NCBI RefSeq assembly: GCF_014199945.1
Contig: NZ_JACHOR010000002.1
Location: forward strand, 372,001-436,000
DNA length: 64,000 nucleotides
Direction: 5' to 3'
Source of the DNA: Brevundimonas variabilis
Lineage (GTDB): Bacteria > Pseudomonadota > Alphaproteobacteria > Caulobacterales > Caulobacteraceae
The stretch's first letter is position 1. Every line of letters begins with the position of its first letter. Made by a program: the position numbers and the translations under genes. A model generated the notes under the pieces. That model worked only from the letters and a program-made list of their open reading frames with translations, was not told the DNA's origin and made no database searches. This document shows, piece by piece, positions 3,697 through 31,815 of this stretch.

Positions 3697-3733
3697 TCCC
3701 GATGGGTCGGCTAAACGGGCCAACGAGAAAAGG

Positions 3734-3749: not shown

Positions 3750-3796
3750 ATATGTTGCTCACCATAACACCCGATTTGCCCGGGTCGGTGTGGAAG

Positions 3797-4288
3797 ATGG
3801 CCGTTCACAATTCTCATCCAGTGATCAAGCACCAGACGGCGACGGAGCTTTATGTTCGTCATTCGGAGTGGCTGAAGAATCGCTTGGCTAAGCGATACGG
3901 TGCCGACGAGGCTGACGAAGTGTCCCAAGAGACGTGGCTACGGATGGTGCCGCATCCACTGCTGGAAGACATAGATCACCCGAAGGCATGGCTTTTAACG
4001 ATCGCGTCGAACGTCGCGCGAAACATGGGCCTGAAGCGCGGCGTTCGACAGAAGTATGCAATGCAGGCCCTTGTCGAACGGCACGAGCAGGCCTCGCAGC
4101 TGACAGAGGTGTTGGCACAACAGCTCCTACTTGGGTTGCCAGTGCCGCTCCGTGATGTCTTTGTGCTATCTAGGATCGTCGGTCTGTCGAATGCACAGAT
4201 CGCAGAGCAGTTGGGGATCAGTCCCAAAACCGTCGAGGGGCGCATGACCAAGGCCTTGGCCCACTGTGCCGCCCAGCTTCGGCGCTAG
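3797..4288 (+). CDS. ECF (FecI-type) RNA polymerase sigma factor
   Basis: Group IV sigma factor expected to direct RNA polymerase to the downstream TonB-receptor operon when a ligand is sensed. Region 2 lies about 15-80 (HSEWLKNRLAKRYGADEADE and VSQETWLRM). Region 4 lies about 100-160 and includes the HTH SNAQIAEQLGISPKTVEGRM. The start at 3797 (MAVHNSHP) gives 163 residues and clears the divergent dyad at 3734-3749. An in-frame ATG at 3752 would add 15 residues and begin only 3 nt after the dyad. The stop (4286-4288) directly precedes the FecR start, so the two are co-translated. The sigma/anti-sigma/STN-receptor trio is the FecIRA layout. Confidence 0.92.
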   Translation: MAVHNSHPVIKHQTATELYVRHSEWLKNRLAKRYGADEADEVSQETWLRMVPHPLLEDIDHPKAWLLTIASNVARNMGLKRGVRQKYAMQALVERHEQASQLTEVLAQQLLLGLPVPLRDVFVLSRIVGLSNAQIAEQLGISPKTVEGRMTKALAHCAAQLRR

Positions 4289-5308
4289 ATGAGGCGCACC
4301 ATGAACAACCCAAAGGTTCGGGTTGGTACGGCGGAAACGGAGGCGGCGCGCTGGCACAGCCGGCTCGGTGGTACCTCCGTGAGCACCGAAACCCTCGAGG
4401 CGTTCTTCACCTGGCGTTCGGATCCGGCGAACGCCGACGCCTATCGACGGGTGGAGACCGCCTGGACATCTGTTGGCAAGCTGGCTGGTGATCCGGTGGC
4501 TGATCAAGCCATTCACGAGGCGTTGTCCCGCCGATCATCGAAGCGGTCGTCCGCGCTGCCAAAGGTGGCTTGGGGACTGACCGCCTTAGCAGCAAGCAGT
4601 GCGCTGGCCTTCAGCGGCTGGTCCTGGTTCGAGACACGGAACGTCTATCAGACCGATATCGGTGAGCAGCGTCTGGTTCAGCTGGCCGACGGGTCGTCGG
4701 TGCGGCTCGATACCGCGTCGCGTGTTAGGGTGCGTTACGGACGCGGGGCTCGCTTTGTCGACCTGGAGCAGGGGCAGGCAATGTTCACCGTCGCGCGTGA
4801 TATACGTCGACCGTTCGTCGTCGAGGCAGGCCTGACCGAGGTCCGGGCCCTGGGCACTGTGTTTGACGTGCGGCGGGATGCTGGCTCGGTTGGCGTGACC
4901 CTGGTTTCTGGCGTCATCGAGGTAGCGACCGAAGGGCAGGGTAGGGCGACCCGGCGGCTGGCTGCGGGGCAGTCTGTGGAGGTCACGCCTTCAGGTGTCC
5001 ATGCGCGCGCCGCGGACGTCGAGAGCGTGACGGGCTGGACGGACGGACGGATCGTGTTCCGGGACACGCCGATGGCCGAAGCGGTGTCGGAAGTTAACCG
5101 CTATCTGACAGACAAGGTGATCCTGGAGCCGGGCACCTGGGACGGCGAGCCGGTGAACGGGGTGTTCAGGACCGGAGACCGCGAGGCGTTCGTCTCGACG
5201 GCCTCGGCGGTGTTCGGTCTGAGGGCCACGGCGCAGGCGGACGGGTCGGTGCTTCTGTCGTCCGACGAAAATAAATCCAGAACGGCTCAAGGGTCAGCCG
5301 GGGTCTGA
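4289..5308 (+). CDS. FecR-type anti-sigma factor / transmembrane sensor
   Basis: Inner-membrane protein that holds or activates the sigma factor and relays a signal from the TonB receptor. A DUF4880-like N-terminal sigma-binding part lies about 15-60 (WHSRLGGTSVSTETLEAFFTW). One transmembrane helix lies about 95-115 (VAWGLTALAASSALAFSGW). The periplasmic FecR domain covers about 125-230 (VQLADGSSVRLDTASRVRV, RALGTVFDVRR). The C-terminal part about 245-320 should contact the receptor's STN domain. The alternative in-frame ATG 4301 (MNNPKVRVG) is equally plausible. It follows the sigma gene with no gap and precedes the receptor by 46 nt, which contains AGGAGG. Confidence 0.93.
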   Translation: MRRTMNNPKVRVGTAETEAARWHSRLGGTSVSTETLEAFFTWRSDPANADAYRRVETAWTSVGKLAGDPVADQAIHEALSRRSSKRSSALPKVAWGLTALAASSALAFSGWSWFETRNVYQTDIGEQRLVQLADGSSVRLDTASRVRVRYGRGARFVDLEQGQAMFTVARDIRRPFVVEAGLTEVRALGTVFDVRRDAGSVGVTLVSGVIEVATEGQGRATRRLAAGQSVEVTPSGVHARAADVESVTGWTDGRIVFRDTPMAEAVSEVNRYLTDKVILEPGTWDGEPVNGVFRTGDREAFVSTASAVFGLRATAQADGSVLLSSDENKSRTAQGSAGV

Positions 5309-5354: not shown

Positions 5355-8291
5355 ATGCGTCGTCTGAGTCTGCTGTCCGGAATTGCATCTGCTGCCTGCG
5401 TCATCGCCATCAGCTCGAGCGCCTGCGCGCAGGAGCAGCGGACCTATAACATTCCGCCGGGGTCGCTCCGGGACGCCTTGAACCAGTTCGCGACGCAATC
5501 GGATCAGCAACTGTTTTATTCGGGCGAGCTGGTCCGGGGCCTGCAGTCATCGGGGCTGCGAGGACGCTACACGCCGTCCCAGGCGCTCGACGCGCTTCTC
5601 GCGGGATCAAACCTGGCCTGGTCGGAAACCCGGCCCGGCGTCATCTTCCTCCGATCTTCGAACACCATCGTGGAAGCGGAGACGACAGTCGACGAGATCG
5701 TGGTCACCGGCACCTTGTTGACGGCAGCTGGACAGCTGACCTCGCCTGTCCAGACCCTCAATCGCGATGCGCTGGACGCCCGAGGTCTTGGTAGCGTCGC
5801 GGAGGTTCTCGCGACACTTCCCCAGAACTACGCCGGTTCGGCCAATCCCGCCGCGTCCCTGACCCTGACCGATCGGGCGGGATCGAACAGCGCCCTCGCG
5901 ACTGGCGTCAATCTGCGTGGCCTCGGCCCGGACGCCACCCTGGTTCTGGTCAACGGGAGACGACTGGCGGGCACCGGGTTCCGTGGCGAGTTCGCGGATG
6001 TGTCGGCATTGCCCTCGGCGGCCGTTGAGCGCGTGGACATTCTCTTGGACGGAGCTTCGGCACTTTACGGAGCGGACGCCGTCGCCGGCGTGGTGAACGT
6101 GATCATGCGCCGTTCGTTCGACGGCCAGGAAACGCGGGCCCGGATTTCCGCTGCCCAAGGTGGAGCGGAGACCTTTCTCGTGTCGCACCTCGTCGGTCGC
6201 GACTGGTCGAGCGGCACCGGTCTGCTCTCTTACGAATATCAGACGGCCAACGCCCTGAACTCGGCGGATCGCCCCTACACCGCCGACGGTGACCTTCGAC
6301 CGTTCGGAGGGACGGATCGCCGGGCCGTGTTCGCCTCGCCAGGAAACATCGTCGCCCTCGACCGGCCGTCCGGCGCCTATGTCTCCCAGTTCGCCATCCG
6401 TCCGAACGCCAGCGGAACGGCCCAGTCTCCCAGTGATTTCGCGGCAGGGGAAAGAAGCCTGTCCAACCAGCTGCAAGGGGTCGATCTGATCCCCGAAACC
6501 GAACGCCACAGCGTCTACGGGCGAGTACGTCAGGACCTCTCGGATCGGGTGGAGCTGTCGGCGGATCTGCGGTTCAGCCGCCGTGAGTACGGGCTCGATA
6601 CGGGCACCACCGCCACAATCTTTCAGGTGACCAGGGCGAACCCCTTTTTCGTGTCCCCGACGGGGGCATCCGCCCATCTTCTGGGCTACTCGTTCATCAA
6701 TGATCTCGGGGTCACGCGACGCGAAGGCAGTTCGCGCAGTCTCGGACTGACGGCAGGGGGCTCGATTGCCTTGGGGCCGGACTGGTCTTTGGAGGGCTAT
6801 CTGGCGTTCGCCGAAGAGCGTGGAAGGACCCGCACCGGCAATCGGGTCAACTCGCTGTTCCTCAACGAGGCGCTGGGCAATACCGCCGACAACCCTGCCA
6901 CGACCTATTCCGCCGTTCGCGACGGCTACTTCAATCCGTTCGGAGACGGGCGGGCCAACACTCAAAACGTTCTGGACTTCATCGGGAGCGGCTATTCCAG
7001 CGCCGACGACCGCAGCCGGGCTGAATCGGTCAATCTCCTTTTGGAGGGACCAGCGTTTTCCCTGCCTGGCGGCGACGTGCAGATCGCCTTGGGGGCGCAG
7101 GTTCGGCGCGAAAGCCTCGGCAGCCGCCTTGAGACCTTCGCGTCCTCACTCGCGCCTGTCGAGACGGTCGTCCCGAAGCGCGACCGGACGATCGCCGCCG
7201 TGTTTGCGGAAGCCCGTGTTCCGCTGGTCGGCCCTGCCAATGCGAGACCAGGGCTGCAGTCCCTCGACCTGTCGGTGGCCGCGCGGGTCGAGGAGTACGA
7301 CGACTTCGGCACCACCTCGAACCCAAAGCTGGGCATCATCTGGTCACCGGCCTCGGACTGGTTCGTGCGAGGATCGTTCGGAACCTCGTTCCGAGCCGCC
7401 GCCCTGCCTCAGCTGTTCGATCTGTCGGCAGCCGCTCCGACCTTCGTTCCCAAGGCGAACGGCGCGTCGGTGCTCGTCCTCTACCGATACGGCGGAAACC
7501 CCGACCTGAAGCCCGAAACGGCAGAGACCTGGACGGCGGGCTTCGAATATGCGCCCCGAGGCGGTCCGCGGTTCAGCGGCAGCTACTTCAATACGCAGTT
7601 CAGTGATCGGATCGCCCAGCCGGTCAATGAGAACCTGACGGGCGCGCTTGTCGATCCCGCGCTCGCGCCATTCGTGGATCTGGTTGATCCCGGCAACAAT
7701 GCTCAGGACCTTGCTCTCATCCAGAGCTACCTCAACGATCCGACGTTCGGGTTCCGCGATCTGTTTCCCGCGACATCCTACGGCGCGATCCTGGATGCCC
7801 GCTGGGTTAACGCAGCGTCCGTGTTTGTTCAGGGCATCGACCTCAGCGTCGCCTACCCGCTGACGTTCGGGCGACATGCCGTCTTTTTCGACGCCAACGC
7901 GTCCTATCTTCTGGATTTCAAGACGCGCTTCACACCGACCGCATCGGACCGGCAACGTCTGGGGCTGATCGGAAATCCCACACGACTGAGATCCCGAGCG
8001 GGCGCGACCTGGTCCTATGGAGACGCCAGAGCAAGCCTGCACTGGAACCATGTCGGGGCCTACGACGACAACGTCGGCCGGGAAATCAAGCCCTGGAACA
8101 CCGTGGACATGCAGGTCGCATGGTCGCCCCAGAATCCGGCGTTAGACGGCGTCCAGGTGTCTCTCAGTGTGCAGAACCTGTTCGATGCCGATCCGCCCTT
8201 TTACGACGCACCGATCGGTCTGGGGTTCGATGCCGCCCAGGCCAATCTGCTGGGCCGGATAGTGGCGCTGCAACTGACCAGACGCTGGTGA
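5355..8291 (+). CDS. TonB-dependent receptor with STN signalling domain, probable lasso-peptide receptor
   Basis: A 978-residue outer-membrane transporter. The signal peptide ends near SSACAQ (about residue 25). The STN domain covers about 29-105 (YNIPPGSLRDALNQFATQSD and following). A TonB-box-like VDEIVVTG lies near 112-119. The plug follows (about 125-245, including LRGLGPDATLVLVNGRRLAG), then a 22-strand-type barrel ending in VALQLTRRW with the aromatic C-terminus required by the Bam machinery. AGGAGG precedes the start. The STN domain links it to the upstream FecIR pair, and the isopeptidase gene begins 9 nt after its stop. In known caulobacterial lasso clusters this receptor type imports the lasso peptide. 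That role here is inferred from context. Confidence 0.94.
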   Translation: MRRLSLLSGIASAACVIAISSSACAQEQRTYNIPPGSLRDALNQFATQSDQQLFYSGELVRGLQSSGLRGRYTPSQALDALLAGSNLAWSETRPGVIFLRSSNTIVEAETTVDEIVVTGTLLTAAGQLTSPVQTLNRDALDARGLGSVAEVLATLPQNYAGSANPAASLTLTDRAGSNSALATGVNLRGLGPDATLVLVNGRRLAGTGFRGEFADVSALPSAAVERVDILLDGASALYGADAVAGVVNVIMRRSFDGQETRARISAAQGGAETFLVSHLVGRDWSSGTGLLSYEYQTANALNSADRPYTADGDLRPFGGTDRRAVFASPGNIVALDRPSGAYVSQFAIRPNASGTAQSPSDFAAGERSLSNQLQGVDLIPETERHSVYGRVRQDLSDRVELSADLRFSRREYGLDTGTTATIFQVTRANPFFVSPTGASAHLLGYSFINDLGVTRREGSSRSLGLTAGGSIALGPDWSLEGYLAFAEERGRTRTGNRVNSLFLNEALGNTADNPATTYSAVRDGYFNPFGDGRANTQNVLDFIGSGYSSADDRSRAESVNLLLEGPAFSLPGGDVQIALGAQVRRESLGSRLETFASSLAPVETVVPKRDRTIAAVFAEARVPLVGPANARPGLQSLDLSVAARVEEYDDFGTTSNPKLGIIWSPASDWFVRGSFGTSFRAAALPQLFDLSAAAPTFVPKANGASVLVLYRYGGNPDLKPETAETWTAGFEYAPRGGPRFSGSYFNTQFSDRIAQPVNENLTGALVDPALAPFVDLVDPGNNAQDLALIQSYLNDPTFGFRDLFPATSYGAILDARWVNAASVFVQGIDLSVAYPLTFGRHAVFFDANASYLLDFKTRFTPTASDRQRLGLIGNPTRLRSRAGATWSYGDARASLHWNHVGAYDDNVGREIKPWNTVDMQVAWSPQNPALDGVQVSLSVQNLFDADPPFYDAPIGLGFDAAQANLLGRIVALQLTRRW

Positions 8292-8300: not shown

Positions 8301-10805
8301 ATGCCCGGTCTGATGAGCCGCCTGGCGGTGACGATGCTTGCTGCCTGGCTCCTGTCCAGCACGGCAGCGTTCACGCAATCCCGACCGTTGTCGATCGACG
8401 ATGTCTTGGACATGGAATCGCTTGGCGCGGTGGCCTTCTCGCCGGACGGTCGGTGGGCGATCCACGAGCGCCGGGGGCCATACGGTACTGCGCCTCGATA
8501 CGATCGAGGCCACCGGACGGCCTGGGCGATCACCGACCTGTGGATGTCGGACCTTGAGGGCGACGCCGAACCGGTCCGTCTTCTCCCCAACGAGGAAGGG
8601 GTTGGCCTGCTCTTCGGCGCATGGTCGCCGACGGGCAAGCGTCTGCTGGTCTACCGTCTCACGGACACACGGCTGGAAGCGGGCATCGTGTCGATGGCCG
8701 ATCGATCGGTCCGGTGGACCGACCTGGCCGCCGACCTTGCCGTCACCGGATCGACCGCTGCCTGGCTCGACGACGATCGCCTGGCGCTGACTGTCCGAGA
8801 GTCCGGAGACCTGCCCTGGCTGCTAAGGTTTGACGGAACGGGCAGTGAGGAGATGCGGGCGCGCTGGGCGCTGACGACGGCCGGCGATCGGCCCTCGCGA
8901 TTGATTGTCGACACGGTGGGCGGCGAGCTCAGGACGAACGAACCGACGCCGACGTTGCGGACGGTCGTGATCCATGCCGTGACAGCGGACGTCCGGACCC
9001 TGGCGACCGGCGCGATCAGGGACTTCGCGACATCGCCGGACGGTGTGTGGGTCGCGGTCCTGACATCGACAGGTCCAGTCGCGCTGGATCCAGCGCAGCC
9101 TGTCGTCCAGAGTCCGGTGCTGCACCGCAGCCGGCTGGCGCTCTTTCACGCCAAGACGGGCCGGACCGTTTCGATCGACCCGGACCTGGACGTGGCCCCG
9201 CATCTCCTGAGCTGGTCAGCCGCTTCCCGAGCCGTTCTGATCTGGGCCCGTCGCGATGGATCGAACTGGTCGGATGGGGGACTGCTGACGGTCGATCTCG
9301 ATGGCGAGACGGACAGGCCGAATCTCGCGGGGCTACGGCCTCTGGCCCCCGGTCTCGTCATCGACGAGTTCCAGGCCGTGAGGGCGGGGTGGCTGGGGGA
9401 CAGACCCGTCCTCTATGGGCGCCGAGCGTCTTCCGATCGGTTCGACTGGTGGCTTGTTGACGCGACGGGTCCCCGGGCCCTGACGAAAGATTTTGTGCAG
9501 CCGCCGACCAGCCTGGCCGCAGTGACGAAGACCGGGGCGCTGGCCTTCGCCGATGGCGCGCTATGGCATCTCAACGCTTTTGGCGCCGCCACTCGGCTTT
9601 CACCGGCGGACGAACGGATTGCGGGTGCGCAGACCTCGAGCCAGATGCAGCCGCTCCGACTGCGGGTCAACGATCCACCGCGACGGGACTGGGTGGCCTC
9701 CGCGAACGGCGCGTCGCTGTCGGTGCGGGACGTGAGGGGAGGGCAGACGGCCCAGACGTCGGTATCGGACTGCCCGGGCCTGGCCCTCGTGAGGGCGGCA
9801 TCCGAAAGCCGGATCGCAACCGCGTGCCTGGATGACGGCGTCGAAACCCTGAGCGTCACAGGGCAAGGAGGCGTGAAGATCCTGGCCAGGGCGAACCCCC
9901 AGTTCGAGACCATCGCGGTGCCGCGTCCCTTGCCGGTACCGCACCTAGACCGCCTCGGACGCCCAGCCACGAGCTGGCTCTATTTGCCGGCAGACAGGAC
10001 GGCTTCGCAGGTCAAAGGTCTTCTCGTTCTGGCCTACCCTGGTGGGAGTGATGATGGACGGTATGTCGATGCCACATCGCTTCAGCGAGGACCCCGACCG
10101 CAGATGCTGACGACTGGAGGCTTTGCGGTCCTCTCGCCATCCTTCCCCAACGAAACGGAGAGTGAACGCCTGACCATGGCAGCGGACTTTGAAGCCGGGC
10201 TCGACATGGCCGTCGATGCCGCGCTGGCCGCGCACACTGAGCTGCCGAAAGACCGGATCGTGCTGGTCGGGCACAGTTTCGGTGGCTACGTCGCGCTGAC
10301 CGTCGCGGCCCGTTCCGAACGCTATCGCGGCTACATCGCGTGGGCCGCCCCGACAGACCTGTCGAGCAACTGGGGAGAGTTCCTGTCTCACAGCCGGATC
10401 TGGCCGGGCGAGTGGTTCACCCTCAATCAGAAGATCGGGGGCGTGGAAAACGGACAGGCTGCCATGGGCGGGCCGCCGTGGAGCGATGTCCTGGGCTATG
10501 CGAGCGCGAGCCCCTACCTGGCGGCGGACAAGATCCGGGCCCCCGTGCTCCTGATCACCGCCGACAGAGACTATGTGTCGATGACGCAGTCGGAGCGGAT
10601 GCTCTCCGCCCTCCATCGCCAGGGACGAAGCGCCCGCTATATCGTCTACTGGGGCGAGGGCCACCTGTTCTCCAGCCCGGCCAACATTCGAGACGTCTAC
10701 GGTCAGATGTTTGACTGGCTCAACGGGATTCTGGCCGAAACTCGGCTTCCGATGGCGACAGGATCGCTTCCCAGTGGCGAACCCAACCCTCAAACGCGGC
10801 GGTGA
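8301..10805 (+). CDS. lasso-peptide isopeptidase-like prolyl oligopeptidase (S9 family)
   Basis: Predicted exported serine peptidase of 834 residues. It has a signal peptide (MSRLAVTMLAAWLLSSTAAF, alternative start ATG 8313), a long beta-rich N-terminal region to about 560, and an alpha/beta-hydrolase domain. The likely triad is Ser659 in VGHSFGGYVA, Asp757 in TADRDYVS and His788 in GEGHLF. Prolyl-oligopeptidase-like proteins beside lasso genes (AtxE2 type) cut the isopeptide bond of the cognate lasso peptide after uptake. It lies 9 nt after the TonB receptor on the same strand and converges on the lasso cyclase gene, overlapping it by 86 bp. That pairing makes an isopeptidase far more likely than a general dipeptidyl peptidase. 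Substrate assignment is inference. Confidence 0.9.
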   Translation: MPGLMSRLAVTMLAAWLLSSTAAFTQSRPLSIDDVLDMESLGAVAFSPDGRWAIHERRGPYGTAPRYDRGHRTAWAITDLWMSDLEGDAEPVRLLPNEEGVGLLFGAWSPTGKRLLVYRLTDTRLEAGIVSMADRSVRWTDLAADLAVTGSTAAWLDDDRLALTVRESGDLPWLLRFDGTGSEEMRARWALTTAGDRPSRLIVDTVGGELRTNEPTPTLRTVVIHAVTADVRTLATGAIRDFATSPDGVWVAVLTSTGPVALDPAQPVVQSPVLHRSRLALFHAKTGRTVSIDPDLDVAPHLLSWSAASRAVLIWARRDGSNWSDGGLLTVDLDGETDRPNLAGLRPLAPGLVIDEFQAVRAGWLGDRPVLYGRRASSDRFDWWLVDATGPRALTKDFVQPPTSLAAVTKTGALAFADGALWHLNAFGAATRLSPADERIAGAQTSSQMQPLRLRVNDPPRRDWVASANGASLSVRDVRGGQTAQTSVSDCPGLALVRAASESRIATACLDDGVETLSVTGQGGVKILARANPQFETIAVPRPLPVPHLDRLGRPATSWLYLPADRTASQVKGLLVLAYPGGSDDGRYVDATSLQRGPRPQMLTTGGFAVLSPSFPNETESERLTMAADFEAGLDMAVDAALAAHTELPKDRIVLVGHSFGGYVALTVAARSERYRGYIAWAAPTDLSSNWGEFLSHSRIWPGEWFTLNQKIGGVENGQAAMGGPPWSDVLGYASASPYLAADKIRAPVLLITADRDYVSMTQSERMLSALHRQGRSARYIVYWGEGHLFSSPANIRDVYGQMFDWLNGILAETRLPMATGSLPSGEPNPQTRR

Positions 10806-12489
10806 GCATGATCTCGACGTAGCCGCCCCTCCAGATGAGGCTCTCCGGCGTGAGCAGAACCGACGCCCTGTCCCGGTCGATCAGGCCCTCCTCGGCAAGC
10901 CTGCCGTCCAGCAGCCATGGCCGCAGCACATCGAGACCGCCGGCGATCATATGCCCGTAGAAGGCCGTCATCTCGCCCTTGGACCGCCGATCGAGGATCG
11001 ATTTCGGCAGGCGGTCGGTGAAGGCGAGCCGAGCGAGGCCCCGGTCTCGCCGACCGCATGTCAGGGCCGGGGTCGACAAGGAGAGGCAGAGCTCCACGAC
11101 CGGCATGGCCAGCAGAGGATGAAGCACGTCCACCGCCTCGCTTTGCAGTGATCTGCCGTGGAACTGGAGGGCGTTGACCAGCCCGGCGATCTGATAAACC
11201 TTCCCGGGAGCGAGATGATCGATGTCTGTCATCCAGGGATGCTGCGCCCGGTCACCGGATGGCAGGGGCCGCAGGAGCGCATTCTGATTTCGGGTTGGAG
11301 GAGGGCGGCGAATGGCCTCTGAGACCAACGACCAGACCGACCGCTCGGTCCATCGGGACAGTCGAGGCAAGGCCGGCGATCCCAGTGCTCTCCAACCAAG
11401 AGAATGCCAGACGTCCTGGTAGACCAGTGTGTTGGCGGGCTGGATGAACAGCGAGTCCCCGCCCTTGCCGGTCAGAACCGCCTCAACGCCGGCGCGCCTG
11501 AACCGCGATGCCCAGTCCGCGTCGTGCAGTCCGTCGAGGCCTGCCAGGGCGGGACGAATGCCGTGTGGCATCGACTGCAGGAGGGCGGGGGTCACAACCC
11601 CCGTCGCGCGCGCGATATAGTCCGGCGTGATCGACAGATGCTCCGCGAGATCGGCGACGTAGTGCCGTTCATCGGCGGACCTGTCGGGACCGTAGGCGTT
11701 CATCCAACACCGGACCTGTTCTCGCGATTCCGATCGGGCGGAAGCCGCGACGAGACTGGAATCCAGGCCCCCGGAAATCTCGACCGCTGGATTATCGCTC
11801 AGTCCCAAGAAGCCTTCGACGGCTTCCTCCACGGCGGAGCACAACATCGCGGCAGCCGCATCTTCTGGAAGCGACGCGGCGTTCCTTCGGGCAGCGATCC
11901 AGTCCGGACGCCAGAGGACGACGGGTTCACCTGAGGGGAGGGGCTGCAGCGATCCCGGCAAGACTGACGTCAGGCCTGTCAGGAGCGGCATACCGGAAGT
12001 GAGCAGCGGATCATGCAGTGCGGCGGAGACCCGCTCGAAGTCAATCCGCCAGTCCGGTCGTAAGGCGGTGACCAGCCAGGGTGGAACATGAGACGAGACC
12101 AGGGTCAGAGCCCCCGTGTTCCACGTCAGGCACTCGAGGCTGCCAGACGGGTCTCTCAAGACCGCGGTCAGCGCGCCTCGTGGTCCAAACGACAGGCCCA
12201 CGAACCGGCCCCAGACCCGAGCGAACAGCTTCTTCTCATAGCTCCAAGGAGAGAAAATCGGCGGGTCATCGAGGTTCGGTTTTCGGCGATCCAGGACGTC
12301 GCCGATCAGAGACCAGGGTCCGACAGTGGTGAGCTTCACGGGGCGCGCGCCCCATCGCCCCAGCCAGCAGTTTGGGTTGAGCTCACGGATCGTCATGCCG
12401 TTTGCCTCAGCATGCCGGCGGAGCGCCGCAGACTGAACGGTGCCGGCCTCGTTCCCGGGGTCATGCGCCGTGACCAGATAGTCGCCCAT
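10720..12489 (-). CDS. lasso peptide cyclase (C protein, asparagine synthetase-like)
   Basis: ATP-dependent enzyme that adenylates the ring-forming Glu/Asp side chain and closes the macrolactam with the core N-terminus. The start at ATG 12489 (MGDYLVTAHD) overlaps the B-protein stop as ATGA, giving 589 residues; an earlier in-frame ATG at 12669 would lie wholly inside the B gene. The N-terminal Ntn-like half lacks the Cys2 of glutamine-dependent synthetases (Met-Gly-Asp instead). The synthetase half has the pyrophosphate loop SGGLDSS at 239-245 and a second nucleotide-site segment VLTGKGGDSLF. Missing Cys2 and the neighbouring B protein separate it from housekeeping AsnB. Its last 86 bp are antisense to the isopeptidase gene. 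Confidence 0.93.
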   Translation of the reverse strand: MGDYLVTAHDPGNEAGTVQSAALRRHAEANGMTIRELNPNCWLGRWGARPVKLTTVGPWSLIGDVLDRRKPNLDDPPIFSPWSYEKKLFARVWGRFVGLSFGPRGALTAVLRDPSGSLECLTWNTGALTLVSSHVPPWLVTALRPDWRIDFERVSAALHDPLLTSGMPLLTGLTSVLPGSLQPLPSGEPVVLWRPDWIAARRNAASLPEDAAAAMLCSAVEEAVEGFLGLSDNPAVEISGGLDSSLVAASARSESREQVRCWMNAYGPDRSADERHYVADLAEHLSITPDYIARATGVVTPALLQSMPHGIRPALAGLDGLHDADWASRFRRAGVEAVLTGKGGDSLFIQPANTLVYQDVWHSLGWRALGSPALPRLSRWTERSVWSLVSEAIRRPPPTRNQNALLRPLPSGDRAQHPWMTDIDHLAPGKVYQIAGLVNALQFHGRSLQSEAVDVLHPLLAMPVVELCLSLSTPALTCGRRDRGLARLAFTDRLPKSILDRRSKGEMTAFYGHMIAGGLDVLRPWLLDGRLAEEGLIDRDRASVLLTPESLIWRGGYVEIMLTAAFEGWVRHWEAILSPSEAEFRPESR

Positions 12490-13151
12490 CAAACGACCAG
12501 GATCGGAGTGAACCCGCTGACACGTTCGACGGTGTCCCCGACGACCCTGTCGTCGATCTGGATCCAGCAGTGGGCGAGAAACGGCCAGGTTCTGACGCCA
12601 AAAACCCAGTCTGTGGTGATGTCCGATGCATGCAGGTAGCTGCGCAACATGAATGCCCGCTGGAGGCATTCGCCGGTGTCGGGCAGCCAGGGTTGAACGG
12701 CCTGAAATGCCGCCAGCATTTCGCCTGCCCTGTCGAGAGGAGCGCAGCCGCGCTGGGCGGTCAGGAGGTTCGGGATTGAAACGAGGTCCGCCATCGAGCT
12801 TCGGACAAACTGTCTCTTCGATCGGAACCCGGTCGCTGCAGCGCCGAACAGGTCTCTGCGGCGCGGCGACCGGGACGCTTCCAGCGCGCGCTCTGGCGGC
12901 ATCTTGGGGACGGAACGACGGCCGTTCGTGGCGTGGGGACAGAGCAGTCCCGCTTTCAGCATCTCCTCCGCAAACAGGACATCACTGACCCGCACCGTCC
13001 CAGGCGAGTGGCCTGGGCGGATCATCTTACCGCCATCGACCACGCAGGCGTATTCGTCGGCCTGGACATTGAGAATGACGATGTCGTCGTCGCACCACGC
13101 CAGATGAACGTCTGGGTGCAGAAACAACGCGTCTAGCAGGGCTTGGGGCAT
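12489..13151 (-). CDS. lasso peptide B protein: fused RRE and transglutaminase-like leader peptidase
   Basis: Binds the precursor's leader and removes it so that the cyclase can act. In 220 residues it combines a strand-rich N-terminal RiPP recognition element (about 1-80, HLAWCDDDIVILNVQADEYA) with a C-terminal cysteine-peptidase domain. The triad reads Cys162 (GECLQRAF), His194 (FLAHCWIQ) and Asp206 (VVGDTVE). The spacings of 32 and 12 residues equal those recalled for McjB (Cys150, His182, Asp194). It is the single fused form typical of proteobacteria, not the split B1/B2 of Gram-positives. It sits 48 nt after the precursor gene and overlaps the cyclase start by the ATGA junction. Confidence 0.93.
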   Translation of the reverse strand: MPQALLDALFLHPDVHLAWCDDDIVILNVQADEYACVVDGGKMIRPGHSPGTVRVSDVLFAEEMLKAGLLCPHATNGRRSVPKMPPERALEASRSPRRRDLFGAAATGFRSKRQFVRSSMADLVSIPNLLTAQRGCAPLDRAGEMLAAFQAVQPWLPDTGECLQRAFMLRSYLHASDITTDWVFGVRTWPFLAHCWIQIDDRVVGDTVERVSGFTPILVV

Positions 13152-13199: not shown

Positions 13200-13316
13200 T
13201 CACATCGGCGTGCGGCTGACGTAGATGCCGATCTCGGCGAACAGGCCGTCGAGCTCGGCCTGGGTCAGGGCCCGGGCGCTGCCGATGGCGACGATGCGGA
13301 GGGTTGGGGTGGTCAT
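13200..13316 (-). CDS. lasso peptide precursor (A), predicted core with Ala1-Glu9 ring
   Basis: A 38-residue peptide with a good ribosome site (AAGGAG about 8 nt before the ATG), placed directly before the B gene. The leader is MTTPTLRIVAIGSARALTQ (19 residues) with the conserved Thr at -2. The predicted core is AELDGLFAEIGIYVSRTPM (19 residues). Ala1 can bond to Glu9, the only acidic residue in the allowed 7-9 window, giving a nine-residue ring, a short loop and a tail with Tyr13 and Arg16 as possible plugs. Ala or Ser at position 1 with Glu9 is known in some caulobacterial lasso peptides. The cleavage point is inferred from the Thr at -2 and the ring rule. The short frame is easily missed by gene callers. 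Confidence 0.85.
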   Translation of the reverse strand: MTTPTLRIVAIGSARALTQAELDGLFAEIGIYVSRTPM

Positions 13317-13407
13317 GGTCGTCTCCTTGGTTGATTGCCACGGATGTGGCCAACCTAGTGAGCGCCGAGGTTTGCGGACTTCAAAACTATATCTGGAGTA
13401 TATTTGA

Positions 13408-13890
13408 TCAGCGTCCCGGCTTGGGACGTTTGGCGGTCAGGTCCTCGGTGCCCGCCTTCAGCCAGGCGGCGGCCTCGTCGCGCGCGAGCGTGGCCTCCAG
13501 GCCGTCGAACATGTCCGTGACCGCCGAGATCAGGGCATGGATGTGGAGATCGGAGACCCGGTCGCCGACGCGGGCGTCGAACTTCTGAAGGGCGATCGTC
13601 AGGATTGTCGCCATCCGGTTGTCGCAGCAGCGGCGGGCAAAGTCCGGCGCGCCGATCACGACGGCCATCAGGATGGCGTTGGGATCGCAGTTCGTGGCCC
13701 GAGCGAACCGGGCGATATGATCCATGTTCAGCCGTGTCCGTCCGGCCTCGAACCGTTCGTAGGTCCGCTTGGCGATATGCATCCTGGAGGCGGTTTCCGC
13801 AGCGGTCAGGCCGCGATGCCTGCGTACCTGTCGGAGCGCCTCGGACAGGAGCGCGCCATCGCGCGGAGCATTTGCAGGGGCACCACTCAT
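13408..13890 (-). CDS. XRE-type helix-turn-helix regulator upstream of the lasso genes
   Basis: A 160-residue protein from ATG 13890 (MSGAPANAPRDG); an in-frame ATG at 13941 would add 17 residues. An N-terminal HTH lies about 15-70 (LLSEALRQVRRHRGLTAAET, MHIAKRTYERFEAG). The uncharacterised C-terminal helical part (about 75-155) contains LTIALQKFDARVGDRVSDLH and may be a sensor or dimerisation domain. It is codirectional with the lasso A-B-C genes, and the 91-bp gap before the precursor includes an AT-rich patch (13383-13404). It could govern lasso production or belong to the mobile element's control circuit; sequence does not decide. Confidence 0.8.
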   Translation of the reverse strand: MSGAPANAPRDGALLSEALRQVRRHRGLTAAETASRMHIAKRTYERFEAGRTRLNMDHIARFARATNCDPNAILMAVVIGAPDFARRCCDNRMATILTIALQKFDARVGDRVSDLHIHALISAVTDMFDGLEATLARDEAAAWLKAGTEDLTAKRPKPGR

Positions 13891-14120
13891 CCACGCGACC
13901 TTTCCGAGTCTTATGTTGGGTGCTGACGAAGTTTCGATCAACGATGAGTTGCGATTTCTGAGCGTAAGCGACCATGCACCGCCACAAAGTGGCGGACGGT
14001 CCGCCGAAAATCAGCGGGGCATCCGACCATTTGTGGCGGGTAAGGCCCTGGCGGCGGTCCGGTGGCTGGACGTCAGGGATTCGGCGTCGATAGTCAGGCC
14101 TGGCTTGACTGGAGACGACC

Positions 14121-14741
14121 GTGACCCGACGGCGGGATCCCTTTCACATGGCGCTCATGACCCTGCGCACCTATGCGCGCAGCGGGATGTTCGCGCCGGG
14201 ATCGCCGATCGTCATCGCAGAGGAAGCCCGTCGCCTTCGCCTGTCGACGACACCGGTGCGAGAGGCCCTGGCCTACCTCTACGGTGAGGGCCTGATCGAG
14301 CGATCCCCGTCGGGCGGCTATCTGGCCCCTCGGCTTGACGTCGCGCTGATCCGCGATCGCTTCGCCTTTCGGCTGCACTGCCTAGAGATCGGATTGGCAC
14401 TGACGACAATCATCCGCGTCCCTCCAGTCGCCGAAACGACCGGCGCGCCGGACGCCCGCGCACGGATGGACCAGCTGGTCCGGATGGCGGGCAATCCGGT
14501 TCTGGCCGAAGCCTTCCAACGGGTGGGATGCCAGCTTCATGTCCTGCTGGAGCCGGAACGCCGCGTCTTCGGGGATATCGACGAGGAGGCGACCTCGCTC
14601 GTCGCGGCCCTGGACCACGGCGACCCCCAGCGCATCCTTGAGTGTCTCCGGACCTATCATTGGCGGAGGATCGACGCGGCAGGCGCGCTGGTCCTCGAGA
14701 CCGAGGCTGGGCGCCTCGGCCTGGATCTGAGGTCGGACTGA
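14121..14741 (+). CDS. GntR-type transcriptional regulator, first gene of the traG operon
   Basis: A 206-residue protein with a GntR-like winged helix (about 1-70). The pattern LRTYARSGMFAPGSPI, VIAEEARRLRLSTTPVREAL and YLYGEGLIERSPSGGYLA is typical of the family, including the recognition helix STTPVREAL. The C-terminal half is helical and poorly conserved. It does not show a clear FCD or UTRA signature, so no ligand can be suggested. It ends one nucleotide before traG, so it is co-transcribed with the coupling protein and probably senses a condition that permits transfer. Confidence 0.85.
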   Translation: MTRRRDPFHMALMTLRTYARSGMFAPGSPIVIAEEARRLRLSTTPVREALAYLYGEGLIERSPSGGYLAPRLDVALIRDRFAFRLHCLEIGLALTTIIRVPPVAETTGAPDARARMDQLVRMAGNPVLAEAFQRVGCQLHVLLEPERRVFGDIDEEATSLVAALDHGDPQRILECLRTYHWRRIDAAGALVLETEAGRLGLDLRSD

Positions 14742-14742
14742 G

Positions 14743-16617
14743 ATGATGCTCCGTCTGCTGCTGATGAGCCTTGGACTGCTCGCCGGTCTTCAGGCCGCGA
14801 CCCAGACCTTCGCCTGGACGTATCTGGCCGCGCCTGTGCTCGGTCCGGCCTGGCGCCCGATCGATGGGCTCTCGCTCTATCCGCCCTGGGCCATCCTGGA
14901 ATGGCGCGGCAGGTTCGAGACCGAGGCCGCAGAGGCCCTGGCGCGCAGCACGTCGCTCATCCTGCTGGGCGCGACAGGAGGCCTGGGTCTGGCCAGCCTG
15001 GTCGGACAGGCCGGGGGCAGGCCTCGGCTGCGGGGTTGGGGCAGCCAGGCGGACGCGCGCCGCGCGGGCCTGACCACCAAGAGCGGTGCCGTCCTCGGTG
15101 TGATGGGCGGTCGGTTGCTCGCGACGGCCGATCTTCGGCCAACCCTGGTGACCGGGGGAACGCGATCGGGGAAGGGAAGGGGGCATGTCGTGCCCACACT
15201 GCTGTCCTGGAGCTCCAGCGTGCTGGTGCACGACCCCAAAAAGGAGCTGTGGCGAATGACGGCCGGGTGGCGGTCGGCGTTCTCGCACAGCCTGTTCTTC
15301 GACCCGAGAGACCCGGCATCGGCGCGGTGGAACCCGCTGGCAGAAATTCTGCCCGGCCCCGGAGAACTGGCCCAGGTGCAGAGGCTGGTCGCCATCCTGT
15401 CCGATCCGGGCGGGGCGCGGGACGACGAGGCGATCTGGGACAAGGCGGCCTCGGAGATTCTGGAGGCGGTGATCCTGCATGTGCTCTACACGGCCGAGGA
15501 CGCGGACAAGACGCTGCTCCGGGTCCGGGAGCTGCTTGCCGATCTCGATGAGGCCGCTGACGTCATGGCCAGGGCGCTGCACCGGACGGGGGCGGACGGC
15601 GAGCCGGAGACCCATCCCTTCATCCGGACGGCGGTGAAGGGTTATGCGGCCATGCACGACCGGTTCCGGACCTCGGTCCAGGGCACGGCGCGGTCCTATC
15701 TCAAATGGCTGGCTGGCGAGGATGTCGAGCGGGCGCTGTCGGCGTGCGACTTCGCGCTGGGCGACCTGATGTGCGCCGAGGCGCCGGTGTCGCTCTATGT
15801 CCAGGTCGCGCCCGCCGACGCGGCGGCGCTGCGACCGCTCGTGCGGCTGCTGTTCTACGCCTCAGCCCAGGCCCTGACCGTGCATGAGGACCGCGACGCG
15901 GCAGACCGCCCGAAGCGGCATCGGCTGCTGATGGTGATGGACGAGTTCCCGCTTCTGGGACGGGTCAGCTTCTTCGAGAAGTCGCTGCGGCTGCTCAGCG
16001 GCTTCGGCGTCAAGGTGATGTTCGTGGCCCAGAGCCTGAACGACATCGTGGAGACCTATGGCGTCAACAACACCATCCTCGACAACTGCGCGGTCTATAC
16101 AGCCTTCTCGGCGCTCGATCCGCTGACCCAGGACAAGGTGTCGAGACTGACCGGGTCGGTGACGGAGACGCGGACAAGCCGGAGCGGGCCGGCGGGCCTG
16201 GGCGCGGGCCGCACATCGGTGTCGCGCTCGGAGGTCGAAAGGCCGTTGCTAGAACCCGGCGAGATCCGCGCCCTGCCAGACGACGAGCAGCTGGTCTTCG
16301 TGGCCGGCTTCCGGCCCTTGCGGACCAAAAAACTCCTCTATGACCAGCGGCGGCCCTTCCGGGAGCGTGCGCGGTCGCTGGCACCCGATCAGGCGTTGCG
16401 CGTCGACACCCCGGGACGGTCGCCCCATCCCTGGGCGGGTCGGAGGAGCCTGGGGCAGGACGCGGAGGCCGGCCTGCCCCTGTTCAAGGAGGTGATCGCG
16501 GCCATGGACGACAAGAAACGGGCCGCTCGCGCCGCCGACATCTTCGGCCGGGTGGCCGAGGAGATGGCCGCCCAGCAGGCGGCGCTGGATCAACTGCAGG
16601 GACTGGGACATGACTAG
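14743..16617 (+). CDS. traG: type IV secretion coupling protein TraG/VirD4
   Basis: Inner-membrane ATPase that brings the relaxase-DNA complex to the mating channel. It has 624 residues with N-terminal membrane segments (about 1-30 and 65-85). The Walker A is VTGGTRSGKGRGHVVPTLLS (about 136-155), DPKKELW follows, and the Walker B is LLMVMDEFPLLG (about 388-399). Further motifs are FVAQSLNDI and a C-terminal soluble part. It is the first structural gene of the conjugation set, overlapping the next gene by 8 nt. No relaxase gene lies in the window. Confidence 0.95.
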   Translation: MMLRLLLMSLGLLAGLQAATQTFAWTYLAAPVLGPAWRPIDGLSLYPPWAILEWRGRFETEAAEALARSTSLILLGATGGLGLASLVGQAGGRPRLRGWGSQADARRAGLTTKSGAVLGVMGGRLLATADLRPTLVTGGTRSGKGRGHVVPTLLSWSSSVLVHDPKKELWRMTAGWRSAFSHSLFFDPRDPASARWNPLAEILPGPGELAQVQRLVAILSDPGGARDDEAIWDKAASEILEAVILHVLYTAEDADKTLLRVRELLADLDEAADVMARALHRTGADGEPETHPFIRTAVKGYAAMHDRFRTSVQGTARSYLKWLAGEDVERALSACDFALGDLMCAEAPVSLYVQVAPADAAALRPLVRLLFYASAQALTVHEDRDAADRPKRHRLLMVMDEFPLLGRVSFFEKSLRLLSGFGVKVMFVAQSLNDIVETYGVNNTILDNCAVYTAFSALDPLTQDKVSRLTGSVTETRTSRSGPAGLGAGRTSVSRSEVERPLLEPGEIRALPDDEQLVFVAGFRPLRTKKLLYDQRRPFRERARSLAPDQALRVDTPGRSPHPWAGRRSLGQDAEAGLPLFKEVIAAMDDKKRAARAADIFGRVAEEMAAQQAALDQLQGLGHD

Positions 16618-17059
16618 GAAGGCTGCTCAGACGTGCCGCGTTCAGGTCTATCTGAACGATCCCAAGATCGTCACGGGGCTTAATCGCGAGGCCCGAAGCG
16701 GGCGGATGCCGCTGAGCCAGGCGGCCGGCCGGGCCATAGCGCGGGGATTGCAGAAGAGCCCTCATGCGGATCCGGAGGACCGGCTGCTGCGTCTGGAGCA
16801 CGCCTTGCGCGATCACATGCGATCCACGGCGCGCGACATGCAGATCGTGCAGGAACTGCTGGTCGAGGTGGCGCGGGCCTTTTTCCTCCGTCTGCCCGAT
16901 GCGGTCATCGATGAAGATCCGACCGTGCAGGCCGCCGTGGATCGCAGGATCGAACGCCTGCTGGATGCGACCGCTGCCCGGATCGTCGCCGGACGCCATG
17001 CCCGGGAGCCGGTGTCTACGGGACCGGCGGACGGCCCCACCAATGGCGCAGCGCACTGA
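16610..17059 (+). CDS. ribbon-helix-helix (CopG-like) conjugation-associated protein
   Basis: A 149-residue protein between traG and trbB, overlapping traG by 8 nt and ending 1 nt before trbB. The N-terminus (CRVQVYLNDPKIVTGLNREA) fits a ribbon-helix-helix strand and helix, with SQAAGRAIARGL as second helix. The remainder is helical (EDRLLRLEHALRDHMRSTAR). Small RHH/CopG proteins at this position recur in Tra/Trb elements and are thought to bind oriT-region or promoter DNA. The exact role here is unknown. Confidence 0.8.
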   Translation: MTRKAAQTCRVQVYLNDPKIVTGLNREARSGRMPLSQAAGRAIARGLQKSPHADPEDRLLRLEHALRDHMRSTARDMQIVQELLVEVARAFFLRLPDAVIDEDPTVQAAVDRRIERLLDATAARIVAGRHAREPVSTGPADGPTNGAAH

Positions 17060-17060
17060 G

Positions 17061-18017
17061 ATGACGCCCCACCCCATCGTCGCCGAGCGCAAGCTGGAGG
17101 CCCTGCGTCATGCCCTGGGCGAGACCGTGTTGGCGGCGCTTGTTGAACCGGCGGTCGTCGAGATCCTCGCCAATCCCGACGGACGGGTGGTGCTGGACCG
17201 GATCGGGGAGGGGCGGCGCGACACCGGGCGCACGCTGTCGGTCGAGGCGCGGGAGCGGGTCATACGGCTGATCGCGGACTATGTCGGGGAGACGGTGACT
17301 CGGGAAGATCCGCGTCTGGCCGGGGTGCTGCCTGGGACGGGCGAGCGGTTCCAGGGCCTGCTGCCGCCGGTCTCGGCGGGGCCGACCTTCTCGATCCGGA
17401 AGCGCCCGGCCGTGATTTGGGGGCTGGACGACTATGTGCGGGATGGCGTGATGACCGGGGATCAGGCGGCGGCGCTGCGCAGCGCTGTGTCAGACCGGAA
17501 GAACATCCTGATCTCAGGAGGGACGGGATCGGGCAAGACGACCCTGGCCAATGCCGTGCTGGCCGAACCGGCTTTCGCGGAGGATCGTGTGTTCCTGGTG
17601 GAGGACACACCGGAGCTGCAGTGTTCCGCCTGGGATGTTGTCGCGGTGCTGACCCGTCGGCAGCCCGTTGTGATCGGCGTGGTGGACCTGGTCCGCGACG
17701 CGTTGCGCATGCGGCCCGACCGGATCGTCATCGGGGAGATGAGGGACGGGGCAGCCGCGCTGGAGACCCTGAAGAGCTGGAACACGGGTCACCCGGGAGG
17801 ATTGTCGACGGTGCACGCCAACTCTGCCGGCGAGGCCTTGCGACGGGTGGAAGACCTGATCGCCGAGGTGTCCAGTCAGGTGCCGCAACGGACCATCGGC
17901 GAGGCCGTGGACAGGGTCGTTCATATCCGGCGAACCCCCCAAGGACGTCGTGTGGATGCGGTGATTGCGGTCGAGGGCTTTGTCGATGGCCACTATCAGG
18001 TCCGATCACTGGCATGA
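17061..18017 (+). CDS. trbB: conjugal transfer ATPase TrbB (VirB11-like)
   Basis: Cytoplasmic hexameric secretion ATPase of the mating channel. The start is placed at ATG 17061 (MTPHPIVAERKLE), 1 nt after the preceding stop, for 318 residues, the usual TrbB length; ATG 17043 is an alternative, and a still longer frame overlaps the RHH gene. It shows Walker A ISGGTGSGKTTLANAVL (about 148-164), Asp box VFLVEDTPELQC, Walker B RIVIGEMRDGAAALE and the His box STVHANSAGEALRR. Unusually, it is not followed by trbC: a 3.4-kb block with a toxin-antitoxin pair intervenes. Confidence 0.95.
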   Translation: MTPHPIVAERKLEALRHALGETVLAALVEPAVVEILANPDGRVVLDRIGEGRRDTGRTLSVEARERVIRLIADYVGETVTREDPRLAGVLPGTGERFQGLLPPVSAGPTFSIRKRPAVIWGLDDYVRDGVMTGDQAAALRSAVSDRKNILISGGTGSGKTTLANAVLAEPAFAEDRVFLVEDTPELQCSAWDVVAVLTRRQPVVIGVVDLVRDALRMRPDRIVIGEMRDGAAALETLKSWNTGHPGGLSTVHANSAGEALRRVEDLIAEVSSQVPQRTIGEAVDRVVHIRRTPQGRRVDAVIAVEGFVDGHYQVRSLA

Positions 18018-20473: not shown

Positions 20474-20477
20474 GGCG

Positions 20478-20819: not shown

Positions 20820-20832
20820 GCGTGTCTGTATC

Positions 20833-20869
20833 ACATATCGACCGCATTTCAAGACTTCGGTCTATATGT
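20833..20869. promoter_or_regulatory. 12-bp inverted repeat upstream of hipBA (candidate operator)
   Basis: ACATATCGACCG (20833-20844) and CGGTCTATATGT (20858-20869) are inverted copies with one mismatch, separated by 13 bp. They lie just upstream of the antitoxin start, where HipB-type proteins repress their operon through paired sites. Confidence 0.65.
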
Positions 20870-21375: not shown

Positions 21376-21693
21376 ATGCGCAGACTTCAACGCCGCCTGT
21401 GCGGCGCAGCGATTACCTGTGGCCTTTTTCTGGCCGGACCGGCCCTGGCCGGAGGCTCGGGCATGCCGTGGGAAGGCCCCCTTCAACAGGTGGTCCAGTC
21501 CATCACCGGACCCGTCGTTCAGGCGGCCGCCGTGGTGGCTGTCGTCATCTTCGGGGCCGGCATCGCCATGAGCGAGAACGGGTCGTCCATGCGACGCGGT
21601 CTCGGCATCATGTTCGGCCTCTCGATCGCCTTTGCGGCCTCGACCTTCTTCCTGGACTTCTTCGGCTTCGCCGGAGGGGTGGAGATCGGCTGA
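21376..21693 (+). CDS. trbC: conjugal pilin TrbC (VirB2-like)
   Basis: A 105-residue membrane prepilin. The signal peptide runs to about ALAGG (residue 26; LCGAAITCGLFLAGPALAG). Two hydrophobic segments follow: about 41-65 (ITGPVVQAAAVVAVVIFGAG) and about 75-98 (LGIMFGLSIAFAASTFFLDF). It polymerises into the mating pilus. First gene of the long trb operon, sharing the TGATG junction with trbD. Confidence 0.92.
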   Translation: MRRLQRRLCGAAITCGLFLAGPALAGGSGMPWEGPLQQVVQSITGPVVQAAAVVAVVIFGAGIAMSENGSSMRRGLGIMFGLSIAFAASTFFLDFFGFAGGVEIG

Positions 21694-21971
21694 TGGCCCA
21701 GACCGTCTTGGATCGTCGTCCCGATGGCTGGGATCTGCCCGTCGCCCAGGCCCTGGCCGAGCCCGTGCTGATGGCGGGCATGCCGCGCGACTACGCCATT
21801 CTGATGGGAACGGTGGCCATGGTGCTGGGGCTGGCACTCCGCATCTGGTGGCTGGGCCTGCTGTGGTGGGCGGTCGCCCATGCGATCGGCTTGGCGGCGG
21901 CGCGCGCCGATCGCCGCTTCTTCGATGTCCTGCGACGCCATCTGGCGCTGCCCGGGCATCTGGACGGGTGA
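21693..21971 (+). CDS. trbD: conjugal transfer protein TrbD (VirB3-like)
   Basis: A 92-residue inner-membrane protein starting at ATG 21693, inside the trbC stop. The N-terminal segment contains LAEPVLMAGMPRDYAILMG, which fits TrbD's start before the membrane part. A hydrophobic hairpin follows (about 38-65, MVLGLALRIWWLGLLWWAVA), then an amphipathic tail. It assists the TrbE ATPase in pilus assembly. The frame is open well upstream, but the overlap with trbC fixes the start. Confidence 0.9.
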   Translation: MAQTVLDRRPDGWDLPVAQALAEPVLMAGMPRDYAILMGTVAMVLGLALRIWWLGLLWWAVAHAIGLAAARADRRFFDVLRRHLALPGHLDG

Positions 21972-21977
21972 CGGGCC

Positions 21978-24401: not shown

Positions 24402-25092
24402 GCGTGTCATCCTGGCCGTGGGCGCTTTGCTCGCGACCTGGGCCCCGGCCACGGCCATGGCCCAGCAGGTCGTGTTCGATCCGCGCAATCACATCGAGAA
24501 CGCGCTTCAGACGGCGCGTCAGCTCGAAAGCTTGGCCAATGAGGCGCGCACGCTGGCCGCCTCGCCCTACAGTCACCTGACCAGGAACAGCCAGTCCCTG
24601 CGCGACATGGCCGAGCTGGCCCGGACCGCGCGGGGGGTCGCGACCTCCGTCGAGGGGCTGGAGCGACAGTTCGAGACCCTCTATCCGGACGACCTGTCGG
24701 GCGCAGACGCCCTGCGTCTGCTCGAGCAGGGCGAGGCCCGGACGGCGGTCGCGCGCCGCACGGCCGAGGACCTCGCGCGCACGGCGGCGGAACTCGAGAG
24801 GCTGGGTCGGGGCAGGGACCAGAGACTGACCGGCGCGCTGAGCGCCAGCGAGATCGCCCAGGGCCAGACGGCGGCGGTGCAGTCGTCCAACCAGATGCTG
24901 GCCGTACTGGCCGAGGACCTGGCGGCGCTCAGAACCATCATGCTGGCCCAGTCGCGGCTGCTGGCTGAGGCGACCGCGCGGGAATCCGCCGAGCGATCGG
25001 CTGGGACGGAAGCCCGCCGCCGGATGTGGAGCCGGTCGGTTTCGGCACCCGCCGCGCCGGGCTTCTCTCCCTTGTCGCGCGCGCGGGACTGA
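24352..25092 (+). CDS. trbJ: conjugal transfer protein TrbJ (VirB5-like)
   Basis: A 246-residue periplasmic protein thought to sit at the pilus tip or to exclude entry. The signal peptide ends near ATAMAQ (about residue 38), followed by VVFDPRNHIENALQTARQL, a TrbJ hallmark. The long helical part (about 50-220) contains LARTARGVATSVEGLERQF and AQGQTAAVQSSNQMLAVLAE. It begins 50 nt inside trbE. No separate trbK entry-exclusion gene is seen between it and trbL. Confidence 0.9.
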   Translation: MWSPSSTPSPARSRPNRRVILAVGALLATWAPATAMAQQVVFDPRNHIENALQTARQLESLANEARTLAASPYSHLTRNSQSLRDMAELARTARGVATSVEGLERQFETLYPDDLSGADALRLLEQGEARTAVARRTAEDLARTAAELERLGRGRDQRLTGALSASEIAQGQTAAVQSSNQMLAVLAEDLAALRTIMLAQSRLLAEATARESAERSAGTEARRRMWSRSVSAPAAPGFSPLSRARD

Positions 25093-25103
25093 GGAGGCCG
25101 GTC

Positions 25104-26504: not shown

Positions 26505-26505
26505 G

Positions 26506-31739: not shown

Positions 31740-31815
31740 TGGTGCCGGCTGCAGGAATCGAACCCGCGACATCCAGTTTACAAAACTGGCGCTCTACCAA
31801 CTGAGCTAAGCCGGC
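31740..31815 (-). tRNA. tRNA-Thr (anticodon UGU)
   Basis: 76 nt on the - strand including encoded CCA. The acceptor stem GCCGGCT pairs with AGCCGGC, the D arm is AGCTCAGTTGGTAGAGC-like, the anticodon loop TTTGTAA has anticodon TGT on stem CCAGT/ACTGG, and the T arm is GCGGGTTCGATTCCTGC. Its 3' end faces the mobile element on the left, the usual insertion point for integrative elements. Confidence 0.97.

Follow-up and report, generated by a model that had tools for sequence, protein, structure and literature searches.

The 64,000-nucleotide stretch of the Brevundimonas variabilis genome considered here (contig NZ_JACHOR010000002.1, positions 372,001 to 436,000; hereafter the window, with positions counted from its first letter) contains a short gene, gene A, next to genes B, C and E and a set of regulatory and receptor genes. 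Gene A is a 38-codon frame with an ATG start that follows AAGGAG by 6 nucleotides, and 48 nucleotides separate its stop from the ATG of B, in agreement with the original prediction, which had described a 38-residue frame with a good ribosome site before the B gene. The start of C overlaps the stop of B, and the end of E overlaps the end of C. A helix-turn-helix (HTH) regulator gene lies upstream of gene A on the same strand, the GntR-like regulator gene and then the VirD4 gene are divergent, and the genes for FecI, FecR, the TonB-dependent receptor and an S9 hydrolase face the operon, the usual layout of an isopeptidase-type lasso cluster. We consider it very probable that gene A encodes a class II lasso peptide precursor of the brevunsin clade, within a cluster that is part of a roughly 102-kb element with an integrase and a type IV secretion system (T4SS).

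Gene A and its processing enzymes

Both its leader and its homologues identify gene A as a lasso precursor, as was first proposed. A profile covering the 12 leader positions nearest the core, built from 18 seed precursors of other loci with the window's own excluded, gives gene A 22.1 bits; the runner-up among the 1,235 window frames of 26-70 amino acids (both strands, all starts counted) scores 10.4 bits, and with the same seeds none of 4,625 control open reading frames (ORFs), from 33 stretches not used for precursor finding, reaches 22 bits (top score 9.8). A better precursor elsewhere in the window is ruled out by these scores, including one near B and C, which the original prediction had named as a finding that would tell against it. 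When about 5.8 billion proteins were searched with a query alignment that includes the window precursor, 65 of 70 candidates were kept at E-values up to 0.1; counted among these 65 are the window's own sequence and further query-alignment rows, and several of the 65 have one core in common. The window precursor falls in a cluster of this search with 2 member sequences (P0002), and among 131 Brevundimonas genomes (E-value up to 1) the exact precursor is confined to this genome, the next best being 61% identical.

It might be argued that gene A is a chance frame and that the true precursor lies elsewhere, since the ORF is short and has no family-model match above chance: against NCBIfam there is no match up to an E-value of 1, and against Pfam a single chance-level row (E-value 0.16). 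However, the brevunsin precursor, used as a control, likewise has no NCBIfam match, and brevunsin's C and partial E proteins also stay below the cut-offs, so that the lack of a model match for the window precursor is uninformative. Given the distance between first and second leader score and the 65 matches of the protein search, a chance frame is exceedingly improbable. Against PDB sequences the window precursor has no match up to an E-value of 10. The finding is genuine and was correctly interpreted: gene A is a member of a known lasso kind with a new core sequence, one that can be tested in lasso discovery.

The neighboring B protein passes the curated threshold for lasso B2 proteins (66.5 bits against NF033537, cut-off 33) and also matches PF13471, and its Cys162, His194 and Asp206 are invariant in 12 aligned rows. 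A search of PDB sequences with the B profile gave nothing up to an E-value of 0.1, and since a Foldseek fold search gave no match at an E-value of 0.001 or below, the assignment of the N-terminal part of B as RRE-like depends on weak VIA-align rows. The C protein scores 90.9 bits against PF00733 (cut-off 21) and stays below the stricter NCBIfam cut-off for lasso cyclases, as does brevunsin's C. E is probably a lasso isopeptidase, judged by its context. Against NF033523, the family of AtxE2-type lasso isopeptidases, it scores 35.3 bits, below the cut-off of 400, and the E protein of the brevunsin locus scores 27.1 bits with a sequence cut by the end of the locus. The structure model of E (pLDDT 86.1) has the S9 fold, a beta-propeller with an alpha/beta hydrolase domain, which is not specific to isopeptidases; Ser659, Asp757 and His788 are invariant in 20 rows.

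Table 1. Features of the lasso cluster and the adjoining conjugation block, in window positions
Feature	Position	Strand	Remarks
FecI-type extracytoplasmic function (ECF) sigma factor	3752..4288	+	
FecR anti-sigma/sensor protein	4289..5308	+	
TonB-dependent receptor with STN domain	5355..8291	+	
E, S9-family hydrolase	8301..10805	+	GHSFGG; probable lasso isopeptidase by context
C protein	10720..12489	-	asparagine-synthetase-like macrolactam cyclase; SGGLDS at 239; no Cys2
B protein	12489..13151	-	putative RRE-like N-terminal part and B2 cysteine protease; NF033537, PF13471
Lasso precursor gene A	13200..13316	-	leader MTTPTLRIVAIGSARALTQ and predicted core AELDGLFAEIGIYVSRTPM (Ala1-Glu9)
Ribosome-binding stretch ACCAAGGAGACGACC	13317..13331	-	5' of the gene A ATG
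HTH (Cro/C1-type) regulator	13408..13941	-	module member
GntR-like regulator	14121..14741	+	module member; 26.4 bits, just below the Pfam cut-off of 27
VirD4, T4SS coupling protein	14743..16617	+	opens the conjugation block next to the lasso cluster
VirB11-like T4SS ATPase	16764..18017	+	T2SSE domain
T4SS genes TrbC/VirB2, VirB4/TrbE, TrbL/VirB6, VirB8, CagX/VirB9, TrbI/VirB10, S26 peptidase, SLT	21376..30422	+	
tRNA-Thr(TGT)	31740..31815	-	last 45 bp (31740-31784) are the right copy of the element's direct repeat

The core, its ring and its first residue

The predicted core has 19 residues, and the lasso mass recomputed from it, 2063.0398 Da with [M+2H]2+ at 1032.5272, reproduces the values first calculated by hand (about 2063.04 Da and 1032.53). 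The leader end ALTQ with Thr at -2 and the choice of Glu9 as the only acidic residue at a legal ring position also stood up: acidic core residues occur at 2, 4 and 9, of which only Glu9 lies within positions 7-9, and both Thr(-2) and an acidic residue 9 are invariant in the homologous precursors (65/65, the window's included). A solved structure gives the register. The precursor of Brevundimonas diminuta ATCC 11568 (locus L073, positions 3713-3832, forward strand) reads ...GSAKALTR followed by DGMGEEFIEGLVRDSLYPPAG, and this second part is the PDB chain 5zcn, brevunsin, which thus begins two residues past the leader Thr of a precursor of the same kind. Because the chain is exactly the part of the L073 precursor that follows the cut, it fixes the cleavage register, and a cut after Thr(-2)-Gln(-1) with a ring closed at Glu9 is the supported prediction for the window.

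The precursor could be the right one and the boundary of its core or its ring still differ, by a cut one residue off or by trimming at the C terminus. A form of benenodin-1 without five tail residues is described in the part of PMC13352647 that we consulted, and cleavage in the window is a prediction. Still, the invariance of Thr(-2) and of an acidic residue 9, together with the register set by the brevunsin chain, speaks against a shift, and a cut moved by one residue would require a Glu1-Glu8 ring; we therefore hold a different boundary or ring to be very unlikely.

One statement of the original prediction has to be revised, namely that Ala at core position 1 is uncommon. Residue 1 of 123 distinct precursors found near Caulobacteraceae B genes is Gly in 53, Asp in 32, Ala in 26, Ser in 8, Thr in 2, and Gln and Leu in one each, and caulonodin VI of Caulobacter sp. 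K31, AGTGVLLPETNQIKRYDPA, is listed as a lasso peptide with Ala1 and Glu9 (table in PMC12427821, a source consulted in part). The 123 are distinct sequences of at least 17 bits upstream of B, with weaker, downstream and duplicate candidates excluded, and the 18 profile seeds, which are among them, had been chosen by a pattern that requires Gly, Ala, Ser or Cys at position 1 and an acidic residue near 7-9. In all 123, the window's included, an acidic residue occupies position 7, 8 or 9, and core residue 9 lies outside the leader profile; Thr(-2), found in 122 of 123, is partly built in, since the profile favors it. At a threshold of 10 bits there are 174 candidates, in 115 of 121 loci, counts that are not independent because loci L033-L072 and L073-L152 share some contigs. 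In 8 of the 120 loci L033-L152 there is no precursor of at least 17 bits upstream of B (L033, L060, L067, L068, L069, L113, L131 and L151), some of these lying near contig ends.

Of the 65 homologues, by comparison, 55 have a core that begins with Asp, 5 with Ala and 3 with Gly, and one each begins with His (P0014) and Leu (P0060). A tree of 90 C proteins, made by a quick method without bootstrap, puts the window's C in a 30-row clade with that of brevunsin (SH-aLRT 100), and in this clade the precursor nearest B begins with Asp in 26 rows, Gly in 2, Leu in 1 and Ala in 1, the last being the window's. Ala1 is nothing special in the family; what stands out is the Asp1 of the brevunsin clade (55/65). 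The five Ala1 cores, of which the window's is one, have the common pattern A[EQ]xxGxFxEIGxxxS[RK]TPx. The other four (P0011, P0047, P0057 and P0063) and the Leu1 core of P0060 belong to unnamed precursors with cores of this kind and with leaders like the window's, and differ from the window core at the variable positions; we know of no product for any of the five. A small Ala1 subgroup within a clade in which Asp1 is the norm bears on which residues the cyclase tolerates at position 1.

Further first residues were seen in passing. The second lasso cluster of this genome (L034, G000:C3) has three precursors upstream of B, two of them with Ala1 (AVTEGDYAELNTSKLYDIPPGE and AVTDGDFVEMNAHFRWDMPTE), and in the third (L033, G000:C4) a candidate frame picked by eye about 237 nucleotides upstream of the B match, ...RQATR followed by ASDFGDRTELVPPYGYIQP..., has a possible Ala1...Glu9 core. 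Cores with Leu1...Glu9 occur in the same clade as the window, at L047/L095 and in P0060 (LEIEGKYVEAAGLRTDFPM and LELVGPFAEIGLGRSKTPV). A 2025 paper exemplifies the observed lasso N-termini as glycine, cysteine, serine and alanine in its consulted part (PMC12670498); the brevunsin chain, which starts with Asp, falls outside these examples.

The element and the linkage to VirD4

The T4SS block that begins beside the lasso cluster stops shortly before a tRNA-Thr gene. The last 25 bases of this gene have exactly two copies in the genome, the second lying 102 kb to the left, with none further at up to two mismatches, and the repeat extends to an exact direct repeat of 45 bp with unrelated flanks. 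An integrase ORF of 496 amino acids begins roughly 0.1 kb inward from the left copy, and its catalytic domain lies about 1 kb inward. Since the two exact 45-bp tRNA-Thr repeats bound a region with an integrase, the lasso cluster lies inside an integrated element of about 102 kb (window 1-31784; G000:C2:301805-403764), with the integrase at the left end and the T4SS at the right. By its gene content it is a probable integrative and conjugative element. It also has RND and metal-pump genes and a ParB-like gene, as found in the ten ORFs scanned to the left of the window. Inside the T4SS block, a HipA/HTH pair (19205-20852, reverse strand) separates the VirB11-like gene from the TrbC gene.

The proximity to VirD4 is not peculiar to this cluster. 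This genome has three lasso B genes, each with a VirD4 gene at a distance of 2.6-13.5 kb. In the 131 Brevundimonas genomes, a VirD4 gene occurs no more than 20 kb away from at least 71 of the 100 B places, where uniform placement in a 3.2-Mb genome gives 2.7; the figure is a lower bound because the VirD4 set comprises 149 of 158 matches (one fragment excluded). The distances form two tight classes, 26 at 2.5-5.5 kb and 45 at 12.5-18.1 kb. Of the 29 remaining B places, 22 have no VirD4 on the same contig and 7 are more than 20 kb away, among the VirD4 matches listed. HipA, a control accessory family, is within 20 kb of VirD4 in 19 of 100 places (Fisher p 1.1e-13 against lasso B) and is thus itself enriched, as an accessory gene may be. 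VirD4 is present in 65 of 67 genomes with B and in 18 of 64 without. In 40 other Caulobacteraceae genomes, chosen for having a B match (39 of them have VirD4), 27 of the 64 B places listed are within 20 kb of VirD4 and 46 within 50 kb, against 1.7 and 4.2 expected under the same uniform placement. We found no report of this linkage in the literature searched, as judged by titles and abstract openings in a body of work mostly outside subscription journals. It is this linkage, rather than the core, that we regard as the noteworthy part deserving follow-up.

Two observations weigh against a fixed link between lasso genes and element. VirD4 genes like the window's (at least 65% identical) number 51, and only 26 of them have B within 8 kb, so the element family exists without lasso genes too. 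The contigs that carry this genome's second and third lasso clusters have no integrase above the Pfam cut-off. The lasso module is a frequent, not obligatory, cargo of the element family. B relatives were found in 15 of 72,556 plasmid records, all at less than 60% identity and none from Brevundimonas.

What travels as the module can be read from its neighbors. In 106 of the 121 loci, which partly repeat one another, both HTH and GntR have a match no more than 5 kb from B, and among the 17 stretches examined of 25 VirD4 places without B only one, L156, has both; because they are co-located with B and nearly absent from VirD4 places lacking it, we assign the two regulators to the lasso module. 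The receptor has FecR next to it in all 12 extended loci, and FecI in 11 of these 12. At L156 (G159:C1:672500-691500), beside VirD4 at about 5.0-9.4 kb, frames of the size of FecI and FecR, a TonB receptor shortened to 629 codons, HTH and GntR are kept, and there is no match to B, C or E. This locus reads as a decayed remnant of a lasso cluster.

The window cluster might itself be silent cargo, with an intact precursor from which no peptide is made: it sits on a mobile element, and L156 shows a decayed version in a relative. The genes of the window are open, though, their catalytic motifs are intact, and the core pattern is common to five homologues, which makes silent cargo unlikely.

Proposed pathway and known lasso systems

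Based on these genes we can present a proposal for how the cluster works. The leader would be bound by the RRE-like N-terminal part of B, and the B2 protease would cleave after ALTQ, with Thr at -2. C could then activate Glu9 and join it to the amine of Ala1, closing the ring about the threaded tail; the product would be a lasso of 19 residues and 2063.04 Da. This peptide would leave the cell and re-enter through the cluster's own TonB receptor, FecR and FecI would sense it, and the S9-type hydrolase would linearize it, with the HTH and GntR regulators controlling the module.

The role of isopeptidase-type lasso peptides is termed enigmatic in the part of PMC9266682 consulted, and the genus-wide linkage to VirD4 provides a concrete, testable setting for it, in which the peptide may serve the mobile element and not the host. 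One candidate role is that of a narrow-spectrum bacteriocin, carried as competitive cargo of the element. At loci with the window's kind of VirD4 (71-83% identical over the best segment, with one short segment of 63% in L085), identity to the window's proteins drops to 35-44% for B and 42-50% for C, and a strong divergence of B, C and E beside a better conserved VirD4 would fit an arms race. Narrow activity is given for astexin-1 in the same part of PMC9266682, but that peptide is the exception there among known isopeptidase-type lasso peptides, which are described as lacking antimicrobial activity, and the window genes identified from FecI to VirD4 include no ABC exporter. We regard a bacteriocin as possible, if on the whole doubtful. 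A broader idea, which we offer as a long shot, is that the isopeptidase-type lasso peptides of Caulobacteraceae, instead of being host metabolites, might serve the conjugative elements that encode them as signals of recognition or density. The element would make the peptide, re-import it through its own TonB receptor, read it through FecR and FecI and use the isopeptidase to clear it; the peptide would diverge along with its partners, so that elements can tell self from non-self.

Our preferred reading of gene A, a lasso precursor of the brevunsin clade on an integrated element, can be set against three known systems. Like the window, the astexin/AtxE2-type clusters (PMC9266682) have a GntR gene before A, an isopeptidase-like S9 enzyme, a TonB receptor and a sigma/anti-sigma pair; in contrast, the window's E scores far below the AtxE2-family cut-off, and the conjugative-element setting of the window has no mention for those clusters in the part of that source consulted. 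Caulonodin VI, compared by its core, is like the window in Ala1 and Glu9 and different in the remaining core sequence.

The nearest characterized relative of the window precursor is brevunsin. In the consulted part of a 2025 review (PMC12427821) its sequence is printed in a table as GDMGEEVIEG..., which contradicts the PDB chain and the genome (DGMGEEFIEG...). The two systems are alike in the leader (GSAKALTR in brevunsin, GSARALTQ in the window), in Glu9, in the B-C-E gene order and in a VirD4 neighbor, and their C proteins are 42% identical over 585 residues. They differ in that brevunsin has Asp1, 21 residues and the tail DSLYPPAG, whereas the predicted window core has Ala1, 19 residues and the tail SRTPM. 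The window therefore departs from Asp1, a residue that, to judge from these precursors, is common in the brevunsin clade and does not define it.
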